A stretch of 64,000 nt of DNA from Pseudomonas sp. A34-9 (GTDB lineage: Bacteria > Pseudomonadota > Gammaproteobacteria > Pseudomonadales > Pseudomonadaceae): NCBI RefSeq assembly GCF_029543085.1, contig NZ_CP119967.1:3808501-3872500 (forward strand), given 5' to 3'. The position numbers and the translations under genes are program-made. This document shows, one piece after another, positions 13,143 through 51,144 of the stretch. The notes beneath the pieces are model-generated. The model was not told the origin of the DNA, searched no databases, and worked only from the letters and a program-made list of their open reading frames with translations. Within the stretch, counting starts at the first letter, position 1; every line of letters begins with the position of its first letter.

Positions 13143-13168
13143 AAATGACCACAAGTCCGTTCAGGGGT

Positions 13169-13208: not shown

Positions 13209-16200
13209 TCAGGACAACACTTGGCCGGCCGGCACTTTCAGGCCGTCATGCCACCACGCCGCGAGACTGAAGACGTTGGGCGCCTTGAGAATCGTGAAGT
13301 GGTTACCCGGCCCGTACCACACCGCCAGATCCGCCACCTGGCGCTGCCAGCCTTCAACCATCGCCGCTTGCTCGCGCTGATTGCCCCACGCATCCAGCGT
13401 CGGGTCATCGACCAGCGCCAGCCGCACCGGCCCGGTGTAGGCCAGTGCCGGTTGATAGACCGTGCGCAGTGCGGTGGCGAAGGTGCGGACCGGGCCGTGC
13501 ATCGCATCCGCCGCGGCACGCTCCGACAGCACACCGGCGTGCACCATCCCGGCATGCAGCAAGCGCATTTGCGTAGCGTCATCAGCGTCGGCGAACACCT
13601 GCGGATCAATCTCCAGGGACTTGCCACTGGACAGTTGCAGGGTGTCGATCAGGCGCTCCAGCGCCGCCGTGCCGGTGTATGGTTTGCCTGCCGTGCCGTT
13701 GCCGCCCGGCGCTTCGCTGTCGATCAACGTCAACGACGCCACCTCGCGCCCGACCGCTTGCAACTGCGCCGCCATGGCATGCGCCACCCAACCGCCAAAG
13801 GAATGGCCGATCAGGTGCACCGGGCCTTGCGGGTAAGCCTGCGCGATGGCTTGCAGGTAGAACGCAGCAGCGGCTTCGACCTGACTGTGCGGCACACTGC
13901 TGCCGTCCAGCCCGCGCGGTTGCAGACCGATGATCGGCCACTCCGGGCCAATCGCTTCGGTCAGATGAATGAACCCGGTGACGCTGTCACCTGCCCCCGG
14001 CACGCAGAAAATCGGCGCATGACCCAGTTGTCCGCTCTGGATCGTCAGTAGTGGCTGATACACCGCCGTGACGGGCGTCACCACAGCCTCAAGTGCCTGA
14101 GTGATGGCTTGCCCCAACGCCTGAATATGCGGGGTTTTCATCATGCTGCGGTGATCCCCGGGAATATCGATGCACTGCAACAGACGACTGTCGAAGCGCT
14201 CCTCCCAACCGCGCGTAGGGCTTGGCACAGACTGCCCGTCCATAAGCGCCTGAGCGCGGAACAGATGAATCGTCTGGCTCGCCGGGCTGACCCGGTAATG
14301 TGCCAAGGCCAGGCGGTGCGCCGCCTCACGATCGAAGTAATGCCAGGCATCGGCCGCGCTGACCGTGGCCAGTTCCGGATCGGTCAGTTGCTGATCCTGG
14401 CAACGCTGGAACAGCGCGTGGAAATCCAATCGTTCGATTTCGGCTTCCAATGCCTGCACGGCCGCCAACGCGGCGGCACCTTCGGCACCCAGCATCAGCG
14501 AACGCCCCCGGCAATGCCCGAGCAACTGGCGCTTGTCGAGATCCTTGCCGCTCCACATCGCTTTGTCCTGAGCCAGTGAGTTGGGCGCGTAGCTGTCGAG
14601 CATGCCGATGAAGTCCACCGGTTGGTCCTGACCCAGCAATTGCTGGGCAACTTCATGCGCCAGCACCCCGCCAAACGACCAGCCCGCCAGACGATACGGC
14701 CCCTGTGGCTGCACCGTACGAATGATCCCGGCCATCCGCGTGGCCATGCATTCAATGGTGCGTAGCTGTGGCTGCCCCAGCGGCACGCCGGGCAGGCCAT
14801 AGATCGCAAACTCGCCGCCAATGTGCTGCGCCAGCGTCGGGAAATACACGTCGCGACCACTGAATTCATGCACCAGGAACAGCGGCGTACCGATATCCCC
14901 GGCACGCACCACGACCAGCCCCTCCGGCAGTCCGGCGATGTCGTCCCGAGCGAGCAACGCCGCCGTCGACTCGATGCTCGGGTGCTGGAACAATTCGGCC
15001 AGTGACACCTGCATTCCGCCGCGCTGCAGCAGATTGACCAGCCGCACCGCGAGCAACGAATGTCCGCCCAACTCGAAGAAGTTGTCGTGACGACCGACCT
15101 GCTCGACGCCGAGCACGTCCGCCCAGATCCGCGCCATGGCGGTTTCCACCTCGCCTTGCGGCGCCGCATAAGGACGGTTGATCACCGCGTCGGCACCCGG
15201 CTCCGGCAAGGCCTTGCGGTCGACCTTGTCGTTGGGGGTCAGCGGCAATGCGTCGAGCAACACGTAGGCGCCGGGCACCATGTACTCCGGCAAACGCTCG
15301 AGCACATGCGCACGCAAAACCTCCAGGTTTGGCGTTTCGATCCCTGCACGCAACGTGTACCAGGCCACCAGGCGTTCATCGCGCACCATCACCACCGCTT
15401 CGCGGAGCGCCGGATGTTCGATCAGCCGCGCTTCGATTTCGCCCGGTTCCAGGCGCAAGCCGCGCAGCTTGATCTGGAAGTCGTTGCGTCCGAGGAATTC
15501 CAGATCGCCGTCGTTGTTGTAGCGCGCCAGATCGCCGGTGCGGTACAGCCGATCACCCGTCACGAACGGGCTGTCGATGAAACGCTCGGCCTGCATCTCC
15601 GGCAGTCCGTGATAACCGCGCGCCACACCCACACCGCCGATGTGCAACTGGCCGCTGACACCCTGCGGCACCGGTTGATCGTAAGCATCGAGGACGTACA
15701 GGCGCGTGTTACTCAGCGCCTTGCCGATCGGCACCACGTTGTGTGGCACCGGCTGATCCGGTTCAAGCGTCCAGCCGGTGCTGTCGACCGTGGTTTCGGT
15801 CGGGCCGTAAACGTTGTGCAAACGCACCCACGGCAGACGGTCACGCACTTGGCGCGCCAGCGCTGCGCTGAGTTCGCCGCCACCGTTGAGCACATCGGTC
15901 AGGCTGGTGCACTGGCTGACATCGACCTGTTCGATGAAGTCCTGCAGCAGCGCCGGCACGAACTTGACCACCGTCACTTGGTGCTCGCGAATCGCCTGCA
16001 CCACATAGGCCGAATCGCGGTTGCCATCGGGCCGCGCCAATACCAGACGCAGACCGGAACACAGCGGCCAGAAGATCTCCCACACCGAACTGTCGAAACT
16101 GAACGGGGCCTTTTGCAGCAAGGCACCATGCTCGGTCGGCGCGCTGATCTGCGAGCCCCAATGCACCATGTTGCAGGCGCTGCGATGCTCGATCATCACG

Positions 16201-19200
16201 CCTTTCGGCAGGCCGGTAGAGCCGGAGGTGTAGATCATGTAGGCCAGGTTCGCGGCGCTCAGGCCCGGCACCTGCGGATCGTGATCGGGTAGCTGTTGCC
16301 AATGACCTTGATCAAGGTCGATCAACGTCGTTGCAGGCACGGCGAACAGCGAACGCGTCGCCGCCTGCACCAGCACCGCGACCGGCGCGCTGTCCTTGAG
16401 CATGTAGGCCAGACGTTCCGCCGGGTACCCCGGATCCAGCGGCACATACGCCCCGCCCGCTTTGAGAATACCCAGCAGACCGACCACCAGATCCAGCCCG
16501 CGCTCGACGCAAATCGCCACGCGTGAATCCGGCTGAACACCCTGTTCGCGCAAGTGATGGGCCAGTTGGTTGGCCCGCGCATTGAGTTCGCGATAGGTGA
16601 GGCACCCGTCCTCGGACTGCACGGCGATGGCCTCGGGTTTGACCCGCACCTGCGCCTCGAACAAACGGTGCAACGGCTGTTCCAGCGCGCAATCGACGTC
16701 GCTGGCATTGAAATCGCTCAGCAGACGCTGACGTTCGTCCTGCGCCAGCAACGGCACCTGCTCCAGCAGCGTGTGTTCATCGCTCACCAACGCAGCCAGC
16801 AAGCGCTGGAAGTAGCCGACAAAACGCCGCACCGTCGACTCATCGAACAACGCTGTGGCATAACGCAGCGAGCCGCGAACGCCATCGGCGCTATCGCCGA
16901 GACTCAGCGACAGGTCGAACTTCACAAAAGGACTTTCCCCCGCCACGCCTTCCAGGGTCAGGTCACCGAGTTGCAGGCTCGGGCCATCATTGTTGTCCCA
17001 GCTCAGCATTGTCTGGAACAACGCGCTGTGGGCCAGACTGCGCAGCGGTTTGCAGATCTCCACCACGTGCTCGAACGGCAAATCCTGATGCGCCTGCGCC
17101 GCCAGGGTTTGCGCCTTGACCCGCGCCAGCAACGCCTCACCGCTGAGTGCGCCTGACGTGTCGATGCGCAGGGCCAGGGTGTTGACGAACATACCGATCA
17201 AGCCTTCGATCTCGGCACGGGTGCGGTTGGCCACCGGCGAGCCGACGACCACGTCGGTCTGGCCGGACAAGCGACTGAGCAACATCGCCCATGCGCTGAG
17301 GATCACCATGTAAGGCGTCACAGCGCGACGTTGGCACAGCGCTTTCAACCCGCGACTCAGCGGCGCGCCCAGCACCACCTCGACATGGCTGCCGGCAAAG
17401 TTCTGTTGCGCCGGACGCGGGCGATCGGTTGGCAGGCTCAGCAACGCCGGCGCTCCGGCCAGGGTCTGCTGCCAGTAATCGCTCTGGCGTTGCAGCACCT
17501 CGCCACTGAGCCAACGGCGTTGCCACACCGCGTAGTCGCTGTACTGCAGCGTCAGCGCTGGCAGCGGGTCTTGCTGGTCATGGCTGAAGGCTTGATACAG
17601 CGCCGCCAACTCACGAGTCAGCACCCCCATCGACCAGCCATCAGAGATGATGTGGTGCAGCGTCAGCAACAGCACGTGGTGATCGTCGGCCAGACGCACC
17701 AGACGTCCGCGAATCAGCGAATCGCGAGCAAGATTGAACGGTGCGCCGGCTTGCTCCTCGATCAGCCCACGCAAGGCGTTATCGGCCTGCGGGTGCTGGC
17801 GCAAATCTTCAACCTGCAGTAACAGCGCGGCCTCGGCCGGCACGATCAGCACCTGCGCTTGCTCGTCGATCTGAGTGAAGCGGCTGCGCAGGGTTTCGTG
17901 GCGCTCGACAATGCGCGCCAGTGCCCGTTGCAGCGCGTCTTCATCCAGCCGCCCGCGCAGACGCAGGCCCAGCGGGATGTTGTACGCCGTGTTGCCACCG
18001 TCCATTTGCGCCAGGAACCACAGGCGCTGTTGCGCAAACGACAGCGGCAGCGCTTGATCTCGCGGTGCCGGCAGAATCTCCGGCAAGGTGCTGCGCGCGG
18101 CCTGGCTCAACACTTGCGCCACGGCCGCCAGTTCCGGGTTGGCGAACAGCTCGGCCAGGGTCAGCTCGACGTCCAGCTGTTGGCGGACCTGCGACAGCAT
18201 GCGCATCGCCAGCAACGAATGCCCGCCCAACTCGAAGAAATTATCGTGTCGGCCGACCTGCTCGACCTGCAACAACCCGGCCCAGATGCGCGCCAGGTTT
18301 TCCTCCAGCGCTGTGGCCGGTGCCACATAAACCCGACTGAGCATGGCAGCTTGTGTCGGTGCCGGCAGCGCCTTGCGGTCGATCTTGCCGTTGTTGTTCA
18401 GCGGCAACGCTTCCAGTTGCACCCATGCCGTCGGCACCATGTACTCCGGCAAGCGCGCCGACAGTTGGGCGTGCAATTCGCTGCTGTCCAGTTGCCCCTC
18501 GTGCGCGGTGTAATAGGCGACCAGCCGCGTGGCCTCCTGAGCGTCGCGGCGCGCCAGCACCACGGCCTCCTTGATCCCCGCGCAGTTGAGCAAGCGGTTT
18601 TCGATTTCTCCCAGTTCGATGCGGAAACCACGGATTTTCACCTGATCGTCGTTGCGACCGATGCAATCGAGTTGCCCCGGCGCCAGCCAGCGCGCGAGGT
18701 CGCCGGTGCGGTACAACAACGCGCCGGGTTTATCGCTGAACGGATCACAGAGGAATTTCTCAGCGGTCAGATCGGCCCGGTTCAGATAACCCAGCGCCAC
18801 GCCCTGCCCGCCGATATACAGCTCGCCGGTTACGCCCATCGGCAGCGGTTGCTGATGCGCATCGAGTACGTAGACCTGGGTGTTGGAAATCGGTCCACCG
18901 ATCGGCACGCTCTCGGCGTTTTCCGCCACCTCTTGCACTTCGAAGGTTGTCGCGTAGGTGGTGGTTTCGGTCGGGCCGTAGCAATGCACGACACGCAGCG
19001 CCGGCGCTGCGGCCAGCAGCGTGCGGAACGCCGCCGGATCACCGCGCTCGCCACCGCAGAGCAGAATGCGCAGGCCCTTGAGCGCCTGCGGGATGAGTTG
19101 CACGTACTGGTTGAACAGCGCGGTGGTGACGAACAGGATCGTTGCGCCGGTGCTGCTCAGTTCACGGCCGAAGGCATTCGGATCGAGCAGGGTCTGATGG

Positions 19201-22200
19201 TCGATGATCACCACGCGACCGCCGTTGAGCAACGGCCCCCAGATGTCCATGGTGCTGGCGTCGAACGCCGGGTTCGAGGCGAAGACCACACGATCCTGCG
19301 CATTGAAATCGGCGTAACCGTTATTCAGCACCAAACGGCCGATGCCACGGTGCGGCACCATCACCCCTTTCGGCGTGCCGGTGGAGCCGGAGGTGTACAT
19401 GATGTACGCCAGCGCCTCGGAAGACTGCACCAGGTTAGGGTTGTGCGTGGGTTGATCGCTGAGTTTCAGCCTGTCCAGATCGATACGCGGCGCGGCGTAA
19501 TCGATGACTTCGCCGCTCAGGGTCAGCAGCGCGGCCGCCCGACAGTCCTCGACCATGAACGCCTGACGCTCGCTCGGCGCATGGATGTCCAGCGGCACAT
19601 AGGCCGCCGCGCACTTGGCAATCGCCAGTTGCGCCACCAGCAGTTCCAGCGAGCGTGGCAGCAGGATCGCCACGTGATCCCCCGGTTGCACGCCTTGGCC
19701 GATCAGGTGATGAGCCAGGCGATTGGCCTGCGCGTTCAGTTCGAAATAACTCAGCGATTGCGCGCCATGCACCGCCGCCACAGCCTTTGGATGCGCCGCC
19801 GCTTGTTGCTGGAAAATCCCGTGCACGGTCAGGGTCTGCGGGTAATCACGCGCGGTGGCGTTGAACTCGACGAGCAAGCGCTGACGTTCCTCCGCCGCCA
19901 GTAACGGCACGTGTTCGAGTACCGCGCGATCATCGCTGACCATCGCCTGCAACAGACGCTGGAAATAGCCGACAAAGCGGCGGACGGTCGATTCGTCGAA
20001 CAGCGCCGTGGCGTAGTTCAGCGAGCCGCGAATCACGCCGTTGACCTCGCCCAATGTCAGCGTCAGATCGAACTTGGCGACCTCGTCCGCGCCGGCCACC
20101 GCTTCCAGTGTCAGCTCGCCCAGCGCCAGTTGCGGCCCAATGTGACTGTCCCAGCTCAGAGTGGTCTGGAACAACGGGCTGTGCGCCAGGCTGCGCGCCG
20201 GTCGGGTGATTTCCACCACTTGCTCGAACGGCAGATCCTGATGCGCCTGCGCCTCCAGTGTCCGCGCCTTGACCCGTGCCAGCAGCGTTTCGACACTCGG
20301 CTCGCCCGAGGTATCGATGCGCAGCGCCAGGGTGTTGACGAACATGCCGATCAACCCTTCGATTTCAGCGCGGGTACGGTTGGCCACCGGCGAACCGATC
20401 ACCACATCGGTTTGCCCGGACAGACGACTCATCAGCAGTGCCCAAGCGCTCGTCATGGTCATGAACAGGGTCACGCCGTGACGTTGGCTCAAGGCCTTGA
20501 GCCCCGCGCTCAAGCGCTGGTCCAGCAGCACTTCGACGTTGCCGCCGGTGTAATCCTGTTGTGCCGGTCGCGGGCGATCGGTGGGCAGCGTCAACAAGGC
20601 CGGCGCACCGTCAAGGGTTTGCTGCCAGTACTCGCTTTGCCGCTGCAGCACCTCCCCGCTGAGCCAGCGTCGTTGCCACACCGCGTAATCGCCGTATTGC
20701 AACGTCAGCGCCGGCAGCGGATCGGGCTGCCCCTGGCTGAACGCCTGATACAACGCCATCAACTCGCGGGTCAGCACGCCCATCGACCAGCCGTCAGCAA
20801 CGATGTGATGCACGGTCAGCAACAGCACATGGTGATCGTCGGCCAAACGCACCAGTCGCCCGCGAATCAGCGAATCATTCTGCAGATCAAACGCTGTCGA
20901 GGCTTCCTGCGCCATTAATACTTGCAAGGTGTGCTCGGCGTGCGGCTGTTGGCGCAGATCGTCTACGCGCAGCAGCAAACCGCTGTCGACCGGGGCAATC
21001 GACACCTGCGCAGTGTCGTCGAGGCGGATGAAACGGCTGCGCAGGGTTTCGTGGCGCGCGATGATCCGCGCCAGCGCCGATTGCAGCGCGTCGACGTCGA
21101 GCAGACCGCGCAGGCGCAAACCGACAGGAATGTTGTACGCCGAGTTGCCACCCGTCATCTGCGCGAGGAACCACAGGCGTTGTTGGGCGAAGGACATCGG
21201 CAAAGCTTGATCTCGCGGTGCCGGCAAAATGTCCGCAAGCGTGCTACGCCCGGCACGATTCAATACTTCAGCGACTGCGCTCAATTGCGCATCGGCAAAC
21301 AGATCACTCAGCGCCAGTTCGACGCCGAGGCGCTGACGGATCAGCGAAACCATGCGCATCGCCAACAGCGAATGACCGCCGAGTTCGAAGAAGTGGTCAT
21401 GACGGCCGACCTGCCCGACTTGCAGGACTTCGGCCCAGATCTGCGCCAGTGCGATTTCCTGCTCACCTTGTGGCGCGACATATTCGCGGGTCGGCAGCGC
21501 GACCAGATCCGGTTTCGGCAACGCCTTGCGGTCGACCTTGCCATTGGCAGTCAGCGGCAACGCCTCGAGCCTGACAAACGCCGCCGGCACCATGTAATCC
21601 GGCAACTGCGTCAACAGCTGTGCGCGCAACTCGCCGACCACCAGCGGCTCGGCCTCAACCTGTTCGGTGAAGTACGCCACCAGTCGCGGTTGGCCGGGTT
21701 CGTCTTCACGGGCCAGCAATACGGCTTCCTTGACCCCGGGGAGCTGATTGAGCCGGGTCTCGATTTCACCCAGCTCAATGCGCATCCCACGGATTTTCAC
21801 CTGGTCGTCGTTACGTCCCAGATAGTCGAGCGTGCCGTCTTCGCGCCAACGGGCAAGGTCACCGGTGCGGTACATGCGCGCATTGGCCGTGGTGCTGAAC
21901 GGGTCGCGCAGGAAGCGCTCGGCGGTCAGGTCGGCGCGGTTCAGATAACCCCGGGCCACACCGGCCCCGCCCACGTACAACTCGCCCATGACGCCCATCG
22001 GCACCGGCCTTTGCTGCTCGTCGAGCACATAAACCGCCGCGTTCGCCACCGGTTTGCCGATGTGCAACGCCGCACCGACTTCAATGCGGCCCGACGTGGC
22101 GACCACAGTGGCCTCGGTCGGGCCGTAGTTGTTGATCACCGCAAAGCGCTGCTCGCGGCTGAACTGACGCAGGCGATCGCCACCGATCAACAGAGTGCGC

Positions 22201-43000: not shown

Positions 43001-44056
43001 CCCCGACAATTGCCCCAGTACCCGCGCCAGCGCCAGGTGCGTCAGGCTCGCGACACTCACGCCCGCCTGCCGCGCCTGCTCGCGCAGCTGCCGGCTCAAG
43101 CGACTGTCGAGCATCAACGAGGCTTCCTCGATGGCGTGGCCGTCGCCCTGTACATCCTGCAAACCACACGGCAGCGTCGGCTCGTCGATATCGGCGAGCA
43201 TGTCGCGGAAAAACGCCTCCTGCGCCTGCTCATTGCCGGCACTGCGCGCCTTGGCCAAGTGATCGCGATACGGCACCGCCGCAGGCACTTGCGCGGTCTG
43301 CCCGAGCAGACAGGCCTGAATTTCCCGACGCAGCACGTCCAGCGCCACGTGATCCATGATCATGTGATGAAACAGCAACAGCGCGACTACGCGGCCCTGA
43401 GCGGGATCCTGCGCGTAGACCACGCGCAGCAACGGCGCGTGCTGCATGTCGAGACGAAAGTACTGAGGGTCGTGGCGTTCGAGCAGTTGGGTGAGTACGT
43501 CAGCGCTGTAGTCCACGGTCACTTCCTGACACACCAGCGGCGCCTCGCGCCACACCACCTGTACGGCTTCGTCGAGGTATTCCCAGACGAACGAGGTGCG
43601 CAGAATGTCGTGACGTTTGACCACCCAGCGCAGCGCGTCGGCGAAAGCGTCCAGCCGTTGCTGGCTGTCGAACACAAAGCGCGCCTGCGAGATGTAAGGG
43701 TCACCGGCAGCGGCCGAGAGATGGTGATAAAGCATGCCTTCCTGCAACGCGGACAGCGGATAAATGTCCTGTACGTTGGCCGCGCCACCCGGCACCGTGG
43801 CGACGATACGGTCGAGGGCATCCTGTTGCAGATTCACCAGCGGCAGCATGTCCGGGGTGATGCGAAAGGCCGGGCTCAGCCAGTCACCGCCGTGCTCAGC
43901 GACCAGTTCCAGCAATTGCGCCTTGTGCGCCGCGAGGCTGTCCCACAACGCGTCATCCAGCGCGTCGTCGCTGCCCAGAATGACCAGGTCTTCATCTTCC
44001 TGTTGAAGGCGGATCGCATGGGTCGAAATAACAGCCATCAGTTCGCTGAAATGCAT
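31040..44056 (-). CDS. lipopeptide NRPS B: modules 3-6 (Thr, Leu, Leu, Ser)
   Basis: Middle synthetase, 4338 aa, four C-A-T modules behind a TubC-like N-terminal docking segment (residues 1-60). Carrier serines are at residues 1096, 2155, 3217 and 4296; A-domain TSGSTG cores are near 700, 1780, 2842 and 3907. Codes: DFWNVGMVH (Thr3), DAWFLGNVV (Leu4), DAWFLGNVV (Leu5), DVWHMSLVD (Ser6). All four condensation domains begin PGGxANVQDIY and carry the HHLxxxxGD signature of dual epimerization/condensation domains, so residues 2-5 of the peptide should be D. There are no separate epimerization domains and no thioesterase. The Thr3 side chain is the expected lactone acceptor (family knowledge). The ATG at 44056 lies 254 bp after NRPS A, a gap filled by a REPIN-like repeat; the stop overlaps NRPS C by 4 bp. 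Confidence 0.97.
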   Translation of the reverse strand: MHFSELMAVISTHAIRLQQEDEDLVILGSDDALDDALWDSLAAHKAQLLELVAEHGGDWLSPAFRITPDMLPLVNLQQDALDRIVATVPGGAANVQDIYPLSALQEGMLYHHLSAAAGDPYISQARFVFDSQQRLDAFADALRWVVKRHDILRTSFVWEYLDEAVQVVWREAPLVCQEVTVDYSADVLTQLLERHDPQYFRLDMQHAPLLRVVYAQDPAQGRVVALLLFHHMIMDHVALDVLRREIQACLLGQTAQVPAAVPYRDHLAKARSAGNEQAQEAFFRDMLADIDEPTLPCGLQDVQGDGHAIEEASLMLDSRLSRQLREQARQAGVSVASLTHLALARVLGQLSGRTAVVFGTVLLGRMDAGEGGEQALGMFINTLPLRVDVGEQSVRAGVLTTHRRLTTLLAHEQASLALAQRCSAVAVPTPLFSAILNYRHSSVEEVADVVDIAPGVQVLGARERTNYPLTINIDDLGEDLRITALADAALGPERMAAYLNTALESLAAALQSSADVALQNLTILPASEREQLLHGTNLPVAQFPATALIHQQFEAHAQARPDATALIFEGQTLSYSELNRRANQLAHHLLALNIRPDDRVAICVERGPHMIIGLLGVLKAGAGYVPIDPAYPLDRIAFTLQDSAPVAVLMQAATRDRLADLAVPQIDLDSGHLKAELDSNPQIPELTPAHLAYVIYTSGSTGLPKGVMVEHRNVVRLFSATDDWFQFNQQDIGVLFHSFAFDFSVWEIWAALAFGGQLLLIPQAVSRSPDDCYALLCQTGVTVLNQTPSAFRQLIAAQGRSTLQHSLREVVFGGEALEPGLLKPWYARVGNAGTRLVNMYGITETTVHVTYRPLQAADAQLVGVSPIGVRIPDLQLYVLDAQREPVPVGVIGELYVGGAGVARGYLNREALTAERFINDPFDENAETRLYKTGDLARWAADGSLEYLGRNDDQVKIRGFRIELGEIEARLSACEGVREAVVIAREDSPGDQRLVAYWLADEGAAPDVAQLRDQLLVSLAEYMVPSAFVRLEALPLTANGKLDRKALPAPDSEAFARRGFEAPVGAVETLIAGLWQTLLGVEQVGRHDNFFELGGHSLLAVKLIERMRQQDLHCDVRVLFGQPSVAALAASLSSERSIIVPDNLIEPGCTRITPAMLPLASLDQAEIDRVVASVPGGIANVQDIYGLAPLQAGILYHHLATSAGDPYVLQAQFAFEGLAQIKTFVGALNGVIQRHDILRTGIVWAGLEEAVQVVWREAPLALERVDADELDGDVLEQMQARFDPRHYRLDLNRAPLMRFVYTEDQPHQRWIGILLLHHIVLDHTALDVLVAEMNDVMLGRSSDLPPPVQYRHFVAQARLGVDDQAHEAFFREMLADIDEPTVAFGLQDVHGDGSDILDSHSDLDAGLGQRLREQARRLGVSVASLVHQAWAQVLAQVSGQQDVVFGTVLLGRMQGGEGADRALGMFINTLPLRVSVDVQSVESGVRATHARLAQLLGHEQASLALAQRCSGVAGAQALFSTLLNYRHSAPQSAAVMWDGVQILSSRERSNYPLVVSVDDLGDGFRLSVQAVPQVDGARVCDYLQTALHSLVTALEYTPTAPLQQLTIVSPGERQRVLVGFNISGRQYPPAQTVQRLFEAQVLAHPEALAVAQGEQQLSYRELNQRANRLAHHLIGLGVQTDDRVAICLRRGPDMLVALLAILKAGAGYVPIDADYPPERIAYLLQDSDPIAVLAQASTRDLLGAVPVIDLEASDWRRLPEDNPLLPGLTPANLAYVIYTSGSTGQPKGVMVEHRTLENLVHWHAEAFDLHAGSHTASVAGCGFDAMAWEVWPALCVGASVHLPPSSIGNEHLDELLEWWRAQPLQVSFLPTPVAEYAFSRELGHPTLRTLLIGGDRLRQFPREQTFAVINNYGPTEATVVATSGRIEPGRALHIGRPIANAKVYLLDRQQQPVPTGVQGELYVGGAGVARGYLNRPELTATQFLDDPFSDEPHARMYRTGDLARWMADGNIEYLGRNDDQVKLRGVRIELGEIEAALSAHDAVRECVVLVRDGRLVAWFIAIESVEIGDLHRHLQARLPDTLVPAAYVRLDSLPLTAHGKLDRKALPEPDQDAWLSREYAAPQGPVEVALAQIWADVLNIEQIGRHDNFFELGGHSLLAVSLIERMRQVGLSADVRVLFNQPSLAALARALGSGREIEVPANLIPIGCTHITPDMLTLTTLDQASIERIVATVPGGAANVQDIYPLAPLQEGILYHHLSAAQGDPYLLQSRLAFDSLERLQTFAAHLQQVIARHDILRTSVVWEGLPSPQQVVWREAQMVVQQVPLEARDGDILEQLHARFDARHYRLDLNQAPLIRMVYAEDPLQQQVVAIVLFHHSILDHTAMEVIGREMHGLMFDQLDTLTPPMPYRNYVAQARLGADEQEHEAFFREMLGDIDEPTLPFGLQDVQGDGRGIEEALQPVDAALNLRVREQSRQLGVSPASLMHMAWAQVLGVVCGRREVVFGTVLMGRMQGGEGADRTLGVFINTLPLRVDLAEGVRAGVKTTHARLTALLGHEHASLALAQRCSAMVGTAPLFSALLNYRHSAAEQQPHDGQGIWQGVRMLGGEERSNYPLTLSVDDLGEGFALNVLALAEIGAQRLCSYMHTALEHLVTALEQAPQRPLNRLPVLSVADYEHLLVGFNPHSAAYPRGATIHRLVEAQAEQQPDALAVIQAAQQLTYAQLNQRANRLAHHLLGLGVQPDDRIAVCLRRSPDMLVAILAILKAGAGYVPVDPAYPAERIAYLLQDSAPMAVLAQAATADLLGAVPLIDLDNPTWQQLSDSNPQLSALTPAHLAYVIYTSGSTGQPKGVMVEHATLENLVHWHCEAFDLRAGSHTSSVAGCGFDAMAWEVWPALCVGATLHLPPESVRNEHLDELLQWWRAQPLQVSFLPTPVAEYAFSRDLGHPTLRTLLIGGDKLRQFPREQTFAVINNYGPTEATVVATSGAVEAGQVLHIGRPMANAKIYLLDDQQRPVPVGVAGELYVGGAGVARGYLHRPELTAERFLDDPFSDEPQARMYRTGDLARWLADGSIEYLGRNDDQVKLRGVRIELGEIEAALSGHEAVQDCVVLVRDGQLLAWFTERLNVDIEDLRRHLQAQLPQALVPAAYVRLQALPLTANGKLDRKALPEPDQTAWLSREYAAPQGTVEIALAQIWSDVLNVEQVGRHDNFFELGGHSLLAVTLIERMRQVDLSTDVRVLFSQPTLAALAAAVGSGREVAVPDNLIAADCTHITPDMLPLVQLDQAGIERIVATVPGGAANVQDIYPLAPLQEGILYHHLSAAKGDPYLLQSCLAFDSIERFQAFAAALRQVMTRHDILRTSIAWQGLAAPVQVVWRRAQLPIQVVALEPAQGEAIDQLRARFDARHWRMDLDQAPLLRLVYALDPDQQRVVAMLLFHHIAMDHTALAVVSEEMQAILRGDERLPVAAVPYRNYVAQTRLGVSDQEHEAFFREMLGDIDEPTLPFGLQDVQGDGNDIEEVCQPLPAVVAQRLRSQARLLGVSVASLFHLAWARVLAATSGQERVVFGTVLLGRMQGGAGADRGLGMFINTLPLRVDVDESSVRAGVKATHARLSALLAHEHASLALAQRCSGVAAPSPLFSAMLNYRHSDSEAQQDIKRESWQGIESLAGEERTNYPLTLNVDDLGSGFQLTVMTPSRIGAARIGQFMQNALVALAEALEQTPQQPLNRLAVLPAEERQALVFGLNDTDVEYDLQQTLHGLFEAQVRCTPDAVAVFAGEQALSYTQLNERANRLARHLISLGVQVDSRVAICVERSLEMVIGLLAINKAGAAYVPLDPAYPPERLAYMLEDSAPAVVLVHGATRTVLGDITTPLVDLDQNTWQSWSADNPQVPALTPRHSAYVIYTSGSTGQPKGVVNEHAAVVNRLLWMQDAYRLSAADSVLQKTPFSFDVSVWEFFWPLMTGARLVMARPGGHKDPQYLTDVIEAERITTLHFVPSMLDVFLANSDITRCDGLRQVMCSGEALPGSLVRRFKLQLPGSALHNLYGPTEAAVDVTAWDCAGSIEQTPDNTPIGKPIANTRMYILDAQQQPVPQGVIGELYIAGVQVARGYLNRPELSAERFLNDPFQPGGRMYRTGDVARYRPDGNIEYLGRNDDQVKIRGLRIELGEIQARLAQIEGVQEAVVVAREEVAGDKRLVAYYTGERLEIDLLRRHLLEHLPDYMVPAVFVHLDALPLSPNGKLDRKALPAPDQQSLKTREYEAPVGDVEITLARLWAELLNVERVGRHDHFFELGGHSLLAVSLIGRLRQEGMEADVRALFEQPTLAGYAAITERMEIVL

Positions 44057-44205
44057 GAGGTAACCTGCTGTAAATACGGAAAAAAGGAGCGCGCAGCAGC
44101 GAGTCCGTGCACGCGGCGCGCAGCCTGGAAAAACTAAAACATCGGGGCGTGGGTGTCTGACATGGGAAGCGGGGACAAGCCGCCGGCTTGAGCACAGCAG
44201 TCCCC

Positions 44206-44294
44206 CTGTACAGGAACTGCCGAAGGCTGCGATCTGTTGATCTTGCTTTTAAAAACAGGATCAACAGATCGCAGCCTTCGGCAGCTCCTACAGG
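44206..44294. repeat. REPIN-like inverted repeat between NRPS A and NRPS B
   Basis: Long imperfect hairpin with arms of about 36 bases: CAGGAACTGCCGAAGGCTGC... on the left and the complement ...GCAGCCTTCGGCAGCTCCTA on the right, around an AT-rich centre (TTGCTTTTAAAAAC). It shares its arm sequence with the repeats at 56624-56719 and 59177-59254. It occupies a third of the 254-bp gap between the first two synthetase genes, which would otherwise form one transcript with NRPS C. Confidence 0.8.
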
Positions 44295-44310
44295 CAGGGT
44301 TCGTTCGCCG

Positions 44311-47300
44311 TCAGAGCCGGCGTTTGCGACTGAGGCTCGGGATGGTGGTCTGGGCGATCTCGACGTGCTTCGCCTGCCGCGAGGTCTGTGCCGCCAGCGC
44401 TGCCAGTGTCGGCTCGCTGAACAGCGTCCGCGCATCGACATGCAGCCCGGCCAGACGCATGCGCGCGACCAGGCTGACCGCCAACAGCGAATGCCCGCCC
44501 AGTTCGAAGAAGTTGTCGTGGCGCCCGACCTGCTCGACCTTGAGCACCTGCGCCCAGATCTGCGCCAAGGCATTTTCCACGTCGCCTTCGGGCGCCTCGT
44601 AAGGACGACTGAGCAGTGCCTCCGCCCCCGGTTCCGGCAATGCCTTGCGGTCGATTTTGTCGTTGGGCGTCAACGGCAACGCCGCCAGCATCACGTAGGC
44701 GCCGGGCACCATGAACTCCGGCAACTGCGCCAACACATGCTTACGCAACGCCTCCAGCGTCGGTTCAGGCGACTCGGCACGCACGCTGTAATAAGCCACC
44801 AGCCGCTCATCGCGCACCAGCACCACCGCCTCGCGGATGGCCGGGTGTTCAAGCAGGCGCGCTTCAATCTCGCCCAGCTCAAGGCGAACCCCGCGCAACT
44901 TGACCTGAAAGTCGTTGCGACCGAGAAATTCGAGATTGCCGTCAGCGCCGTAACGCACCAGATCGCCGGTGCGATACAAGCGATCGCCGGCCACGAACGG
45001 ACTGTCGATAAAGCGTTCGGCCTGCAGTTGCGGCAGTCCCAAATAGCCCCGCGCCACGCCCACCCCGCCAATGTGCAAATGACCACTGACGCCAAACGGC
45101 ACCGGTTGATCGCCGGCATCGAGGACATACAGCCGCGTGTTGCTCAGGGCCTTGCCGATCGGCACCAGCGTCTGCGGCACCGGTTCGCCGGGCTCCAGAG
45201 TCCAGCCGCTGCTGTCGACCGTGGTTTCGGTCGGCCCATAGACGTTGTGCAGGCGCACCCATGGCAGGCGCTCGCGCACTTGCCGGGCCAGGGCGACGGT
45301 CAACTCGCCGCCACCGTTGAGCACGTCGGTGAGGCTGGTGCACTGGCTGACATCGTCTTGTTCGATGAATTGCTGCAACAACGCCGGTACGAACTTGACC
45401 ACGGTAATGTTCTGCTCGCGGATCACTTGCGTCACGTACGCCGAATCGCGGTTGCCATCGGCCCGCGCCAGGACCAGGCGCATGCCTGAGCAGAGTGGCC
45501 AGAAGATCTCCCACACCGAACTGTCGAAACTGTACGGCGCCTTTTGCAGCAACGCCCCGTGTTCCGTCGGCGGCGCCAGTTGCGACCCCCAGTGCACCAT
45601 GTTGCAGGCGCTGCGGTGCTCGATCATTACGCCTTTCGGCGTGCCGGTAGAGCCGGAGGTGTAGATCATGTAGGCCAGATTCGCCGCGTCGAGGCCCGGT
45701 ACCTGCGGATTGTCGTGGGGATGGTCCTGCCAGGCACCGAGGTCGAGATCGATCAGCGGCACGCCGGGTTCGCCGAGCAGATCGCGCGTTGCCGCATGCA
45801 CCAGCAGCGCGACCGGTGCGCTGTCCTGCAACATGTAGTTCAGCCGTTGCAGCGGATAATCCGGATCGAGCGGCACATAAGCACCGCCCGCCTTGAGAAT
45901 CCCCAGCAGACCGATCACCAACTCAGGCCCGCGCTCGACGCAGATCGCCACCCGCGAATCCGGCTGCACGCCCAGCCCGCGCAGATGATGGGCCAAGCGG
46001 TTGGCCTGCGCGTTCAACTCGCCATAGGTCAAGCGTTGCTCGGCGAACTGCACGGCGATGGCATCCGGCTTACTCCGAACCTGTTGCTCGAACAAAGAGT
46101 GAAGCGGCCGGTCCATCGGACAGTCGACTGCTGTGGCATTGAACTCGATCAGCAGCCGTTGCAGCTCCTCTGCCGGCAACAATGGCAGACGATTCAACGG
46201 CCGTTGCGGCGTGGTTTCCAGCGCCTCGACCAAACCGCTCAAGGCCGCTTGCACGTAGCCGCCAATCCGCTGCGCACCAATGCTCGACAAGGTTCTGGTG
46301 GTCAGACGCAAGCCTGTGCCGAGGTCATCGACACTCAGGGTAAACGGGTAATTGGTGCGCTCCTCATTGGCCAGAGTCTCGATGCCTTCCCAGGTTTGCC
46401 GAGAGTGCTTTTGCTCGACGTCATCGCTGTGCCGATAGTTGAGCAAGGCGCTGAACAGCGGCGCCGGTGCGGCGACGCCACTGCAACGTTGAGCCAGTGC
46501 CAAAGAGGCGTGTTCATGGGCGAGCAAAGCGGTCAGGCGCGCATGGGTGGACTTCACCGCGGTACGGGCGCCCTCGCTCACATCGACCCGCAGCGGCAAC
46601 GTGTTGATGAACACCCCCAGCGCCCGGTCGGCACCCGCGCCGCCCTGCATGCGCCCCATCAACACCGTGCCGAACACCACGCTTTGCTGGCCGGATGTCG
46701 CCGCCAACACTTGCGCCCAGGCGAGGTGGATCAGGCTGGCAACACTCACACCCGCCAGGCGTGCCTGCTGTTGCAGGCGCTGATAGAGATTGGGTGCCAC
46801 CGCTTGCCCGGCTTCTTCAATATTGCTGCCATCGCCCTGCACATTCTGCAAAGCGAATGGCAACGTCGGCTCGTCGATGTCGCCGAGCATCTGGCGAAAG
46901 AACGCTTCATGCTCTTGTTCACTGACACCCAATCGCGTTTGCGCCACATAGTTGCGATACGGCACCGACGCCGCCAGCGGTTCGGTGCACCCCGACAGGC
47001 TGGCGTGGATTTCTTCGCGCATGGCCTCCAGCGCAATGTGATCCATCGCCAGGTGATGGAACAGCAAGATGCCGACCACCCGGTTATGCGCAGGGTCACG
47101 GGCGAACATCAGGCGCAGCAGCGGTGCCTGACTGACATCGAGGCGATAGCGCCGCGCATCGAAACGCTGGTGCAATTGATCGATGACCGCGCCGTGGGCA
47201 GGGTCCAGTTCGACCTCCTGCACCGGCAGAATCGCCGCGCGCCACACCACTTGCACGGGTGAAGGCAGCCCTTCCCAGACCACCGCCGTGCGCAGGATGT

Positions 47301-50300
47301 CGTGCCGCGCCATGACCCGACGCAGCGCAGCGGCGAAGGCCTCGACCCGTTCGAGGCTGTCGAACGCCAGCGCGGATTGCAGCAGATACGGATCGCCCTG
47401 CGCAGCGGTGATGTGGTGATAGAGAATGCCTTCCTGCAACGGCGCCAAGGGGTAGATGTCCTGCACATTGGCGGCCCCGCCCGGCACCGTCGCGACGATA
47501 CGGTCGATCATCGCTTGTTCCAGTTGCACCAGTGGCAGCAGGTCAGGCGTGATGTACGTGCAATCGACCGGAATGCGGTTGGCCGGCACCTCGACTTCGC
47601 GGCCGCTACCTTCCGCCGCTGCCAGCGCAGCCAGTGTCGGTTGGCTGAACAGCACCCGAACATCGCTGTTCATTCCGATCTGGCGCATACGTTCAATCAG
47701 GCCAACCGCCAACAACGAGTGACCGCCCAGCTCAAAGAAATGGTCGTGACGCCCTACCCGTTCAACCTGCAATACCTCGGCCCAGATCTGCGCCAACGCG
47801 ATTTCGACGTCACCTTGCGGCGCCTCGTATTGACGACGGATCAACGCTTCCGGCCCCGGTGCCGGCAACGCCTGGCGATCAAGCTTGCCGTTGGCGGTCA
47901 ACGGCAAGGATGTCAGGCGCACGTAGGCGCTCGGCAGCATGGCGCTGGTCAGCCGGGTTTTCAGGTGTGCGTGCAAAAGGTTGATTTCCACTGGCTCGCG
48001 CTCGGTAAACCACGCCAACAGTTGACCGTCGCGCACCAGCGCAACCGCTTCCTGTACGGCCGCGTGGCTGGCGAGTGCGGCTTCGATTTCACCGAGTTCA
48101 ACGCGTACGCCGCGGATTTTCACTTGATCGTCGTTACGCCCCAGATACTCCAGATTGCCGTCGGCACGCCAGCGCGCAAGGTCGCCGGTGCGGTACATCC
48201 GGGCCTCCGATTCGGCGCTGAACGGATCGCACATGAAGCGCTCGGCCGTCAAATCCGCACGGTTCAGGTAACCACGAGCGACACCGCTCCCACCAACGTA
48301 CAACTCACCGCTCACCCCGATCGGTACGGGGCGCTGTTGCTCATCGAGCAGGTACACCGTCGCGTTGCTCACCGGTTTACCGATGTGCAACGCCTGCCCG
48401 GCCTCGATCTGGCCGCAGGTGGCGACGACGGTGGCTTCTGTCGGGCCGTAGTTATTGATCACCGCGAAAGATTGCTGCTGGCTGAACTGGCGCAGGCGAT
48501 CGCCGCCAATCAACAGTACGCGCAACGTCGGGTGTTCGAGCTGCTTGCTGAAGGCGTACTCGGCAATCGGCGTCGGCAGGAAGCTGACCTCCAGCGGTTG
48601 CGCGCACCACCAGTCGAGCAAGCCGTCAATGTCTTCGCTGTCACCGCCGCTGGGCGCCAGGTGCACGGTTGCACCCACGCACAGCGCCGGCCAGATTTCC
48701 CAGGCCATCGCGTCAAAGCCGAACCCGGCGAGACTTGACGTGTGACTGCCGGCACGCAGATCGAAGGCAGCACAGTGCCAATCGATCAGATTGCCCAGCG
48801 TGCGATGTTCAACCATCACGCCCTTGGGCAGGCCGGTGGAACCGGAGGTGTAGATCACATAGGCAAGGTTCGTCGGTGTCAGTGCCGACACCTGCGGCGC
48901 AGTGTCCGGGCTGAGTGGCCAGCTGCGCCGATCCAGTTCAATCACCGGCATCAGCAACGCCGGCAAACGCCCGCGCACAGCGCTTTGCGTCAGCACTGCC
49001 ACTGGCGCGCTGTCTGCCAGCAGGTAGTTCAGGCGCTCTTGCGGGGCGGCCGGATCAAGCGGCACATAAGCTGCGCCGGCCTTGAGCGTGGCGAGCAGAC
49101 CGACCAGGGTGTCGAGCCCGCGCCGGGCAACAATCGCGACGCGATCATCCGGGCGCACCCCGAGTGCGATGAGGTGATGAGCCAAGGCGTTGGCTTGCTG
49201 ATCGAGCTCGCCGTAGCTCAGGGATTGTCCGCCGTGAATCGCCGCCAGTGCGTCCGATTGGCGTGCCGCGCGGGCCTCGAAACGCTGAGGCACGGTCAAC
49301 GCCTGCGGATAATCCACACGGGTAGCGTTCCAGTGTTGCAGCCGCGCGGTATCCATCGCCGAGTGCAAACTGAACTCCATCACCGGCAGGTCAGGACTTT
49401 CCAGCCCCTGCTCGAGTATCAAGAGCAGCCGTTGAGAAAACGCCTCGATTTCACCGGTCTCGAAATAGCTCGGCGAGTAGGCTATGTGCAGCCAGGCATT
49501 TTCCTCGAATCGGTTGCTGCGCAGATAAATGGCCAGTGGTGAGGCTTCCTGATGATTGGAGACCTTGACCACGTGACCATGCGCGCCGCCATAAATATGC
49601 GCCTGATCATCTTGTTCGTAAGAGACGGTCACCTCAAACAGTTGCGCGCGGTCCTCACGCAGCAATCCGAGGGCGCGGTTCATTTCACTCAGGGGAAACC
49701 GCTGATGCCGGAAGTTCTCTTTCAACTCATCGCGAACCGCGCTGACCAACGCGCTGAACGTGAGTTCGCGACCAAAACCCATGCGTACCGCACTGACCTG
49801 AGTGAACAACCCAACCGTGGATTTGAATCGAGCGCCGGACCGATTGAGGATCGGCAACCCGACCACCCATTCGTCCCGCTGCGCGGTACGGCTGAAATAC
49901 ACATGAAGCGCCGCCAGCAGCACATGAAACGCCGAGGCGCCAAGCCCTTGGCCGAGCTGCTTCATTCGCTCATGCAACAGCGCCGGGAATGTGTTGGCCA
50001 CGATCTGACTGGACGGCGCGTTCGCCGCGAATCGCTCCTGGTAACGCGGCACCAGCAGCGGTTCAGGCAGTTGACGATATTTGCCCAGCCAGAAAGCGCG
50101 ATCCTGCGCATAACGAGGCGACTGGTAATAACGCGCATTGTCCTCGATGAAATCGACGTAGGACGGTGCTGTATCGGGTAATGGCTGATCAGCGGCCAGG
50201 GCGTTGTAGATCCCGGCCAATGACTTGAGCATTTCGGAGAAGCCCCAACCGTCGACGATCAGGTGGTGAGCCAGAATCGAGAACCAATGACGATCGTCAT

Positions 50301-50721
50301 CAAGCCGGATCAGCAAAAAACGAAACAATGGTCCGCCATCCAGCGCGAACGTCTGATCGATGCGCTCCTGAATCAATGCTCGCGCTGCCGCAACCGGTTC
50401 AGCGTGGCCGCAAACGTCATAAGTCATCAACGGCCCGTGCATCGATGACGCAAAACGTTGCCAGGGCAGCCCGTCCGCCCCCTCCGCCGGTAACAGTTCG
50501 ATGCGCATCGCGTCGTGCAGACTCACCAAGTGTATGAGCGCCGCCTGCATCCGTGCCGGCTCCAGCGACCCGGTCAGCTCCATATACCCACCGATGTTGT
50601 ACAACGGCGAATCACCACGACTCAGTTGATCCAGCCAGATGTCCAGTTGCGCAGCGGTCAGGGGAAACGTCGCGGGTGCAGCGGACGGCATGTCCACCGT
50701 TGGGGCAAAAATAGGCGGCAT
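44311..50721 (-). CDS. lipopeptide NRPS A: starter C domain, modules 1-2 (Leu, Asp)
   Basis: Initiating synthetase, 2136 aa. The first condensation domain (residues about 20-450, HHLIVDGWG) differs from all the others and matches the lipo-initiation (C-starter) type that N-acylates residue 1, usually with a 3-hydroxy fatty acid. Module 1: A domain with TSGSTG near 624 and code DAWFLGNVV (Leu); carrier Ser1002. Module 2: dual epimerization/condensation domain (PGGAANVQDIY, HHITAAQGD), A domain with core near 1688 and code DSWKLGVVD, carrier Ser2078. The module 2 code is not the textbook Asp code but is identical to that of module 11. Both positions are Asp in the arthrofactin/amphisin family, so Asp is inferred. 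The ATG is preceded by AAGGA at 5-6 nt. It is divergent from the luxR gene at 51145. Confidence 0.97.
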   Translation of the reverse strand: MPPIFAPTVDMPSAAPATFPLTAAQLDIWLDQLSRGDSPLYNIGGYMELTGSLEPARMQAALIHLVSLHDAMRIELLPAEGADGLPWQRFASSMHGPLMTYDVCGHAEPVAAARALIQERIDQTFALDGGPLFRFLLIRLDDDRHWFSILAHHLIVDGWGFSEMLKSLAGIYNALAADQPLPDTAPSYVDFIEDNARYYQSPRYAQDRAFWLGKYRQLPEPLLVPRYQERFAANAPSSQIVANTFPALLHERMKQLGQGLGASAFHVLLAALHVYFSRTAQRDEWVVGLPILNRSGARFKSTVGLFTQVSAVRMGFGRELTFSALVSAVRDELKENFRHQRFPLSEMNRALGLLREDRAQLFEVTVSYEQDDQAHIYGGAHGHVVKVSNHQEASPLAIYLRSNRFEENAWLHIAYSPSYFETGEIEAFSQRLLLILEQGLESPDLPVMEFSLHSAMDTARLQHWNATRVDYPQALTVPQRFEARAARQSDALAAIHGGQSLSYGELDQQANALAHHLIALGVRPDDRVAIVARRGLDTLVGLLATLKAGAAYVPLDPAAPQERLNYLLADSAPVAVLTQSAVRGRLPALLMPVIELDRRSWPLSPDTAPQVSALTPTNLAYVIYTSGSTGLPKGVMVEHRTLGNLIDWHCAAFDLRAGSHTSSLAGFGFDAMAWEIWPALCVGATVHLAPSGGDSEDIDGLLDWWCAQPLEVSFLPTPIAEYAFSKQLEHPTLRVLLIGGDRLRQFSQQQSFAVINNYGPTEATVVATCGQIEAGQALHIGKPVSNATVYLLDEQQRPVPIGVSGELYVGGSGVARGYLNRADLTAERFMCDPFSAESEARMYRTGDLARWRADGNLEYLGRNDDQVKIRGVRVELGEIEAALASHAAVQEAVALVRDGQLLAWFTEREPVEINLLHAHLKTRLTSAMLPSAYVRLTSLPLTANGKLDRQALPAPGPEALIRRQYEAPQGDVEIALAQIWAEVLQVERVGRHDHFFELGGHSLLAVGLIERMRQIGMNSDVRVLFSQPTLAALAAAEGSGREVEVPANRIPVDCTYITPDLLPLVQLEQAMIDRIVATVPGGAANVQDIYPLAPLQEGILYHHITAAQGDPYLLQSALAFDSLERVEAFAAALRRVMARHDILRTAVVWEGLPSPVQVVWRAAILPVQEVELDPAHGAVIDQLHQRFDARRYRLDVSQAPLLRLMFARDPAHNRVVGILLFHHLAMDHIALEAMREEIHASLSGCTEPLAASVPYRNYVAQTRLGVSEQEHEAFFRQMLGDIDEPTLPFALQNVQGDGSNIEEAGQAVAPNLYQRLQQQARLAGVSVASLIHLAWAQVLAATSGQQSVVFGTVLMGRMQGGAGADRALGVFINTLPLRVDVSEGARTAVKSTHARLTALLAHEHASLALAQRCSGVAAPAPLFSALLNYRHSDDVEQKHSRQTWEGIETLANEERTNYPFTLSVDDLGTGLRLTTRTLSSIGAQRIGGYVQAALSGLVEALETTPQRPLNRLPLLPAEELQRLLIEFNATAVDCPMDRPLHSLFEQQVRSKPDAIAVQFAEQRLTYGELNAQANRLAHHLRGLGVQPDSRVAICVERGPELVIGLLGILKAGGAYVPLDPDYPLQRLNYMLQDSAPVALLVHAATRDLLGEPGVPLIDLDLGAWQDHPHDNPQVPGLDAANLAYMIYTSGSTGTPKGVMIEHRSACNMVHWGSQLAPPTEHGALLQKAPYSFDSSVWEIFWPLCSGMRLVLARADGNRDSAYVTQVIREQNITVVKFVPALLQQFIEQDDVSQCTSLTDVLNGGGELTVALARQVRERLPWVRLHNVYGPTETTVDSSGWTLEPGEPVPQTLVPIGKALSNTRLYVLDAGDQPVPFGVSGHLHIGGVGVARGYLGLPQLQAERFIDSPFVAGDRLYRTGDLVRYGADGNLEFLGRNDFQVKLRGVRLELGEIEARLLEHPAIREAVVLVRDERLVAYYSVRAESPEPTLEALRKHVLAQLPEFMVPGAYVMLAALPLTPNDKIDRKALPEPGAEALLSRPYEAPEGDVENALAQIWAQVLKVEQVGRHDNFFELGGHSLLAVSLVARMRLAGLHVDARTLFSEPTLAALAAQTSRQAKHVEIAQTTIPSLSRKRRL

Positions 50722-51144
50722 AAGGTCCTTCTCATGTAATTTTGCCGGTATTCAAGCATCGGCCCTTGCACCGACATGACACCTGAAACCCGGACATTCA
50801 TCACGCGCCCCCCCGCCCGCAGGAGCGCAAAGACACGAATCATGCAGGCACTGTCTAAAACTTCGGAGAGGAAATACTGAAAAGCTTGTAGGAAAAAAAC
50901 CACTTAGCAGCGCCGCCATTTACCCCAACGCTACTGACCAGAAATCACCATCGCCCGGGTTTCCGGGGTTTGAGAGTGACTGGACAGTCACTCAAGCCGC
51001 TGCGTCTGTGCTCAGCGCCGTCAGAACCCCGGCGCCAACATTCAGAAATAGTGGCACTTTGTGTCCCTGTTTTCCCCTACAGACGTAGGACAAATCCATA
51101 GGCTTAAATCCCGCTCCAGTTCATGTTCAAGGAGAAATGACTGC
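50722..51144. promoter_or_regulatory. divergent control region between NRPS A and luxR
   Basis: About 420 bp without a convincing gene, expected to hold the NRPS promoter (leftward) and the luxR/nodT promoter (rightward). The part nearest NRPS A carries only the ribosome site AAGGA. A T-rich/A-rich block lies at 50879-50910. The main recognisable element is the dyad at 50974-50993. AAGGAG at 51129-51134 is the likely ribosome site for the luxR start. Confidence 0.6.
50974..50993. promoter_or_regulatory. 20-bp dyad, candidate operator for the cluster's LuxR-type regulator
   Basis: Palindrome GAGTGACTGGACAGTCACTC: two perfect 9-bp arms with a 2-base centre. It lies about 250 bp upstream of NRPS A and 150 bp upstream of luxR, inside the divergent region. 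Length and symmetry resemble lux-box-type operators bound by LuxR-family dimers; the assignment is inference. Confidence 0.45.

Follow-up and report, generated by a model that had tools for sequence, protein, structure and literature searches.

A lokisin/anikasin-type lipopeptide synthetase of apparently mosaic origin in Pseudomonas sp. A34-9

Three adjacent nonribosomal peptide synthetase (NRPS) genes, all on the minus strand, occupy positions 13209 to 50721 of the window, a 64,000-nucleotide stretch of the Pseudomonas sp. A34-9 genome (NZ_CP119967.1, positions 3,808,501 to 3,872,500). We read them as an amphisin-family cluster with lokisin/anikasin as its product and a synthetase of mosaic origin, with a probability of about 0.88. 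The lokA-type gene (44311..50721; a 2136-aa open frame) encodes Cstart-A1(Leu)-T1-C2(dual)-A2(Asp)-T2, where C, A, and T denote condensation, adenylation, and carrier domains and dual marks a condensation/epimerization (C/E) domain. The lokB-type gene (31040..44056; 4338 aa) carries modules 3 to 6 (Thr-Leu-Leu-Ser), with C domains that are all dual C/E; the lokC-type gene (13209..31043; 5944 aa), whose first 4 bases are shared with the end of lokB, carries modules 7 to 11 (Leu-Ser-Leu-Ile-Asp), followed by tandem thioesterase (TE) domains (13212..14921) with serine motifs GWSFG (residue 5454) and GHSFG (residue 5746). A motif scan of the three open frames gave 11 A3 motifs (YTSGSTGxPK), distributed 2+4+5, 11 carrier motifs (LGGHSL), and no internal stops. 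Pfam identified two C/A/T sets in LokA and four in LokB (E-values of ≤2.3e-18), and four C, four A, four T, and two thioesterase stretches in the last 4745 of the 5944 residues of LokC; module 7, outside that scanned part, is assigned from motifs and a Condensation match in a genome search. An earlier note on this DNA had given the same coordinates and described 11 modules in three colinear proteins with a C-starter domain; the coordinates, the module count, the colinearity, and the C-starter are all supported, as is the tandem TE. At the LokB N terminus, ahead of C3, lies a segment that we take to resemble a docking domain. NCBIfam names on the NRPS proteins (SolG, MxcG, and others) were treated merely as module-level likeness.

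The A-domain codes, at positions that we take to follow GrsA numbering, read DAWFLGNVVK (Leu) at modules 1, 4, 5, 7, and 9, DSWKLGVVDK (Asp) at modules 2 and 11, DFWNVGMVHK, presumably Thr, at module 3, DVWHMSLVDK (Ser) at modules 6 and 8, and DAMFLGCTYK (Ile) at module 10. Position 278 of the Leu domains was placed by motif; placement by MAFFT alone, with a one-residue gap, read S rather than F. PMC12283262 lists DAWFLGNVVK and DAMFLGCTYK among the commonest Leu/Ile/Val codes and assigns DVWHMSLVDK to Ser; the available part of its code compilation has no entry for the Asp code.

Comparisons were made with a panel of 19 lines: the window, HKI0770, p11.F9, CROZ-RG-20F-R04-15 (CROZ), TH43, UCMA 17988, HKI0874, 28B5, AKS31, EA105, BML-PP030, RIT288, GM80, Irchel 3H7, DTU12.3, G071, G029, G353, and G307. 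These are intact clusters returned by searches, an uneven sample; TH15 (G009) was left out, its lokA and lokC frames being split. In that assembly the neighboring genes are intact, and decay and sequencing error are both possible. The window codes match those of HKI0770 at all 11 modules, bar a single I/V change in the code for Thr; the anikasin of that strain is reported to share the residue sequence of lokisin (PMC6636606). UCMA 17988, whose milkisin is reported with Gln8 and Glu11 (PMC5985324), differs from the window at modules 8 (DAWQFGVVDK) and 11 (DGWKFGVVDK), plus the same I/V change. DSWKLGVVDK occupies module 2 in all 19 lines, and Asp2 is reported for arthrofactin, amphisin, lokisin, pholipeptin, and tensin (PMC3039948) and for milkisin (PMC5985324). 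Because this code is also that of HKI0770 module 11, residue 11 is called Asp rather than Glu, with the caveat that some family A domains take both acids, as reported for arthrofactin A11 and stechlisin A2 (PMC9948697). The codes fit the amphisin-family frame Leu1-Asp2-Thr3-x-Leu5-x-Leu7, with a hydroxy amino acid at position 3, and code and comparison with HKI0770 and UCMA 17988 together point to the Ser8, Leu9, and Asp11 that define lokisin/anikasin. The order Leu-Asp-Thr-Leu-Leu-Ser-Leu-Ser-Leu-Ile-Asp proposed in the earlier note is therefore borne out by the codes and by HKI0770, as are its choices of Ser8 over Gln8 (DVWHMSLVDK against DAWQFGVVDK) and of Leu9 over Ile9 (a Leu code in a domain that groups with Leu9 domains).

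The 11 C domains fall into three classes, C1, C2 to C7 with C9, and C8 with C10 and C11; identity is 53 to 70% within the second class, 72 to 77% within the third, and ≤26% across classes. C2 to C7 and C9 have an extended HHxxxxxGD motif near the domain start, and C8, C10, and C11 have the HHxxxDG form with SFAQQRLW. This is the amphisin-family arrangement of a C-starter, dual C/E domains at modules 2 to 7 and 9, and LCL domains at 8, 10, and 11, and it accompanies the family's 11 modules as 2+4+5 in a single trigenic cluster with a tandem TE and flanking LuxR, MacAB, and outer-membrane efflux protein (OEP) genes. It predicts D residues at positions 1 to 6 and 8 and L residues at 7, 9, 10, and 11, a configuration (D1-D6, L7, D8, L9-L11) identical to the one listed for lokisin in the review table of PMC3039948. 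PMC9431178 reports that dual-domain predictions in the Amphisin group agree with measured configurations, and calls the stereochemistry of lokisin incomplete.

On this basis the C-starter domain of LokA would couple a 3-hydroxy fatty acid to Leu1, the eleven modules would build the undecapeptide in the order given above, the dual C/E domains of modules 2 to 7 and 9 would convert residues 1 to 6 and 8 to D, the tandem TE would join Asp11 to Thr3 in the nine-residue lactone ring that characterizes the amphisin family (11:9 lipopeptides), and export of the product would fall to a MacAB-type pump and its outer-membrane partner. The calculated [M+H]+ of the lokisin/anikasin peptide with a 3-OH-C10 tail is 1354.81. 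We hold the predicted peptide, a product known already, with high confidence. Lokisin and anikasin may be one compound (PMC6636606), and the codes and C-domain classes of the window appear to fit both alike.

Other products of the family have to be set against this assignment. Gln8 codes occur in rpoD-close relatives of A34-9 (Irchel 3H7 at 99%; EA105, HKI0874, UCMA 17988, G071, and others at 98%), which would favor a tensin/amphisin-type peptide with Gln8 and/or Glu11; module 8, however, carries a published Ser code (PMC12283262) rather than DAWQFGVVDK, and module 11 carries the code of module 2, the same in 19 of 19 lines, rather than DGWKFGVVDK, which makes such a product very improbable. 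The codes at 8 and 11 do not fit tensin or milkisin (Gln8 and Glu11), and amphisin is likewise ruled out on codes. The arthrofactin synthetase has the 2+4+5 plan found here, but with Ile9 in place of Leu9. The identical gene plan, and the presence of the arthrofactin code set in G307, speak for arthrofactin, but the module 9 code of the window is that of Leu, and the domain clusters with those for Leu9, well apart from the Ile9 domains of G307, G353, EA105, and 3H7; code and tree alike speak against Ile9, and we give arthrofactin hardly any chance. Pholipeptin has, by name, the identical residue sequence, and the earlier note had proposed "lokisin or pholipeptin." Its published configuration (L-Asp2, L-Thr3, D-Leu7, D-Leu9, D-Asp11; PMC3039948) would call for LCL domains in modules 3 and 4 and for dual domains in 8 and 10, whereas the genes encode the opposite types, and pholipeptin as published is therefore excluded, leaving it a chance as slight as that of arthrofactin. 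The family and residue sequence of the earlier proposal thus stand, as does lokisin, supported by codes and C-domain classes, while pholipeptin falls on its opposite configuration; anikasin, with the same residue sequence, had been overlooked.

Six of the 19 panel lines have lokisin/anikasin codes: the window, HKI0770, p11.F9, CROZ, TH43, and BML-PP030. Eight have Gln8-Leu9 with DGWKFGVVDK at module 11, and two (EA105 and 3H7) have Gln8-Ile9 with that same module 11 code. RIT288 alone combines Gln8-Leu9 with DNWKLGMVDK at module 11, a code that differs from the Asp and Glu codes found elsewhere in the panel; G307 alone has the arthrofactin set, Ser8-Ile9 with DSWKLGVVDK; and G353 alone has a Val-like code at module 4, Gln8-Ile9, and DAMFLGCTFK at module 10, and is possibly oakridgin-like or an unnamed family member. 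The rpoD gene of A34-9 (1845 bp) is 99% identical to that of Irchel 3H7 and 98% identical to those of ten others, including HKI0770, EA105, UCMA 17988, and HKI0874, which places the host among lines of several code sets.

The anikasin synthetase of P. fluorescens HKI0770 shares the module plan and, the Thr I/V change apart, all 11 codes, and its lokB and lokC are 90.0% and 87.7% identical to those of the window at the nucleotide (nt) level, but lokA reaches merely 81.2%, and the C-starter/A1 region and modules 7 and 9 are of other types. The milkisin synthetase of P. crudilactis UCMA 17988 is close in lokB (89.6% nt) and in modules 7 and 9 (∼90%), but has Gln8 and Glu11 codes, and its lokC diverges in blocks 2 and 4 described below. 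The lokisin clusters of Pseudomonas sp. COR10 and P. koreensis S150, compared by published description, have the same peptide prediction and the order OEP-LuxR-A-B-C-MacA-MacB, and the three NRPS genes of S150 are within ten bases of the window's in length (PMC7520995). COR10 is reported to be just 76 to 88% identical to HKI0770 (PMC6636606) and may therefore belong with the P. parakoreensis type, represented here by BML-PP030, which is 75.8, 80.3, and 82.0% identical (nt) to the window in lokA, lokB, and lokC. Going by gene order, one might assign the window to the COR10/S150 sequence type, but this is unsupported: the P. parakoreensis line, their likely kin, is only 76 to 82% identical to it, and the window is nearer to HKI0770 and to tensin-type lines.

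The patchwork origin of the synthetase, which the earlier note had overlooked, is seen in the blocks of lokC and in the C-starter of LokA. Identity along lokC was followed in 40-codon windows, taking the best of eight tensin-code lines against the best of HKI0770, p11.F9, and CROZ. Block 1 (27102..30824, minus strand, as are all blocks; residues ∼74 to 1314), from module 7 to the first half of C8, is of the milkisin/tensin-lineage type, unlike HKI0770: over residues ∼74 to 1194 the tensin type reaches 86 to 97% and the HKI0770 group 62 to 89%. One of the eight tensin-code lines, AKS31, bears the HKI0770 type in module 7. Block 2 (23634..27101; ∼1315 to 2470), the second half of C8, A8 (Ser), T8, and the first half of C9, is of the HKI0770 (anikasin) type, with 88 to 99% to that group and 45 to 86% to the tensin type over residues ∼1354 to 2431, except at window 1434, where the tensin type is higher. 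Block 3 (20484..23633; ∼2471 to 3520), the second half of C9, A9 (Leu), T9, and the first half of C10, is again of the milkisin/tensin-lineage type (residues ∼2511 to 3500: tensin type, 89 to 98%; HKI0770 group, 61 to 93%); its right edge is uncertain, between residues 3318 and 3522. Block 4 (13446..20483; ∼3521 to 5866), comprising the rest of C10, modules 10 and 11, and most of the TE pair, is of the HKI0770 type (residues ∼3572 to 5846: 87 to 100%, against 62 to 96% for the tensin type), although parts of module 10 are undecisive between the two types, the undecisive windows being 3811, 3891 to 4131, 4291, and 5687.

Segmentation of parent-informative sites, with 47 subtracted from positions to allow for the longer open frame, put the switches near residues 1314, 2470, and 3318 to 3522, all inside C8, C9, and C10. 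For four parent pairs, the cumulative excursion of these sites in lokC was 597 to 694, whereas the highest value among 2000 shuffles per pair was 159. In TH43, a separate assembly, the block types of lokC follow one another in the same order. Across the local group, lokB and module 2 of lokA are ∼90% alike, and the same HKI0770-versus-tensin test gave a weak signal or none there: the observed value was reached by 315, 1330, 16, and 204 of 2000 shuffles in lokA and by 1108, 329, 562, and 10 of 2000 in lokB, for four lines each. We therefore claim the HKI0770-versus-tensin mosaic for lokC only.

LokA differs from the local lines in its initiation unit (residues 1 to ∼950; 47872..50721, minus strand), of which the C-starter forms residues 1 to ∼490. 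The DNA of this unit is 58 to 85% identical to eight local lines, against 82 to 97% from residue ∼990 to the end. The C-starter is 81 to 85% identical to G353 up to residue ∼390 and 76% thereafter. Among 398 genomes of the genus, its DNA was matched in 12, including A34-9 itself (E ≤ 1e-150), at 83% in G353 and 71 to 74% in the other ten. A protein search with LokA residues 1 to 450 gave, among the best 120 of 378 matches, three besides its own at 84 to 85%, from Pseudomonas sp. Seg1, P. baetica, and one ENA entry, the other matches listed being ≤70%; past residue 990 those three are 47 to 90% identical to the window, against 87 to 100% for HKI0770. Upstream of the lokA start, between about −330 and −150, some local lines are closer to the window (best, 83 to 90% per comparison window) than is G353 (58 to 78%), and from −500 to −390 the local lines and G353 are all alike. 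This local-like upstream DNA and the change of identity within LokA place one border of the C-starter close to the start codon and the other close to, or ahead of, the A1/T1 junction. These comparisons assign the C-starter to a third, rare lineage that lies outside the local lines. The A1 core departs from the local lines too, but its co-transfer with the C-starter from the G353 lineage is unsupported by the tree of this segment (S2) and by an approximately unbiased (AU) test (p 0.365). Among the local panel lines, only the window has the C-starter swap.

Eight segments were treed individually by a quick method with SH-aLRT support. In the C-starter tree the window grouped with G353 (100), and in the module 7 tree with 3H7 (94), inside a clade made up of tensin types and TH43 (99). 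Its partners were HKI0770 and p11.F9 in the A8 block (100) and HKI0770, p11.F9, and CROZ in modules 10 to TE (100); in the A9 block it fell within the tensin-type clade with TH43 and RIT288 (97). Of six AU tests on the initiation unit of lokA and the blocks of lokC, in which the window was forced into another group, five rejected the forced placement: p was 0.0065 for the C-starter placed in the local group, 5e-6 for module 7 and 2e-23 for A9 placed in the HKI0770 group, and 6e-41 for A8 and 3e-142 for modules 10 to TE placed in the tensin group. A seventh, lokB with G353, was rejected too (p 9e-8).

Direction is less clear than mosaicism itself. In modules 7 and 9 the alleles akin to the P. 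parakoreensis type are those of the HKI0770 group and not of the window, and these two differences may therefore stem from exchange in the HKI0770 lineage. One may view the window and TH43 as tensin-type frames bearing a Ser8 unit and an Asp11-TE block, or the tensin lines the other way around. Relative to tensin/milkisin-type lines, the Ser8 unit and modules 10 and 11 with the TE would have been exchanged as blocks whose edges fall within C domains, and the C-starter, possibly with the adjoining A1, would have been acquired from outside the local lines.

Several observations weigh against this reconstruction. Block edges are resolved just to ∼40 to 200 residues, and the exact place of the window inside the tensin-type clade is weak for the A9 block (inner branches of 11 to 70). 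For the A1 core alone, the local grouping is not rejected by the AU test, and its tree sets the window beside Koreensis-type lines (94), not G353. The groups for the AU tests were defined with the trees already in view, and the p-values are therefore descriptive. The peptide of A34-9 is a prediction from its genes. Uneven rates, or ancestral variants kept in different lineages, could give a patchwork in place of recombination, and donor and recipient are indeed indistinguishable and the lokC blocks fall into at least two allelic classes across the panel. The same lines, however, swing from ∼88 to 99% down to ∼45 to 89% and back within a few 40-codon windows, and retained variants in neighboring blocks would still require crossover to be joined in one gene; we regard this explanation as unlikely. 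Slightly less likely still is an assembly artifact. NRPS modules are repeats, and assembly error is possible on sequence alone, although the genome is one contig (6.54 Mb); the frames are intact, and the lokC pattern is found again in the separately assembled TH43, a recurrence that the C-starter swap lacks. We accordingly retain the mosaic synthetase as the preferred reading.

Around the NRPS genes, a pleA/macA-type membrane fusion protein (11994..13154) and a pleB/macB-type ABC exporter (10033..11997) are encoded downstream of lokC on the minus strand. Upstream, on the plus strand, are a LuxR-family regulator (51061..52002; start codon uncertain) and an outer-membrane efflux protein in the lokT position (52036..53430), and that side also holds an SCO gene, a PCu(A)C gene, and a substrate-binding protein gene. 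Between lokA and lokB is a gap of 254 bp (44057..44310) containing an inverted repeat that we take to resemble a Pseudomonas REP element, and a 193-aa open reading frame (43992-44573) spans the gap. The length of the gap agrees with the untranslated lokA-lokB gap of 150 to 300 bp reported for trigenic clusters (PMC9948697). P. koreensis S150 has the same gene order at its lokisin locus, and there a lokA mutant was inactive on R. solani and sharply weaker on P. nicotianae (PMC7520995). A second LuxR-family regulator downstream (6444..7190, plus strand) is missing from the gene table for S150 in that paper, as available. An IS3-type transposase pair (8621-9762; orfA, 9463-9762; orfB, 8621-9421, with an rve domain) lies between pleB and this regulator; it had no DNA match in 25 loci compared, 11 of which show both flanking genes, and is therefore probably a recent insertion. 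Two neighboring DUF6124 genes (7432-7713 and 7773-8138) also lie beside the cluster, with full-length matches only in CROZ and EA105 among the compared loci and partial matches in others. Elsewhere in the genome, more NRPS condensation domains at 2242805-2267343 and 4504205-4513309 probably belong to the pyoverdine system.

The synthetase is a new patchwork member of a known family, and its most likely peptide is an ordinary, already known antifungal with soap-like character. For this family, the duplication and deletion of modules and a recombinational switch between Gln and Ser have been discussed, and trees of NRPS concatenates and of rpoD were reported to agree closely, with synthetases evolving in step with their hosts (PMC9948697). 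No block-level mosaic of lokABC-type genes was found in the available text of that paper, supplementary files aside, and we make no claim that the mosaic is unpublished. The lokC mosaic qualifies the co-evolution statement, because a concatenate averages blocks of conflicting histories. If the reconstruction is true, the exchanged unit would be half C-A-T-half C, in contrast to the A-core swaps described as the principal mode in nature, to which the C-A exchange for virginiafactin is an exception (PMC8097286). The exchanges that alter the peptide are those of Gln8/Ser8 and Glu11/Asp11. An apparently intact natural line would also mark sites, inside C domains and near the A1/T1 border, where modules seem to have been split and rejoined with the peptide unchanged. 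The six lokisin-code lines show four block combinations (the window; TH43; HKI0770, p11.F9, and CROZ; and P. parakoreensis BML-PP030). We suggest, tentatively and at somewhat less than even odds, that selection holds the lipopeptide constant while the synthetase is rebuilt repeatedly by unit exchange in mid-C-domain; the foreign C-starter may shift the acyl tail, and it would serve as a natural test of whether the C-starter determines the fatty acid.

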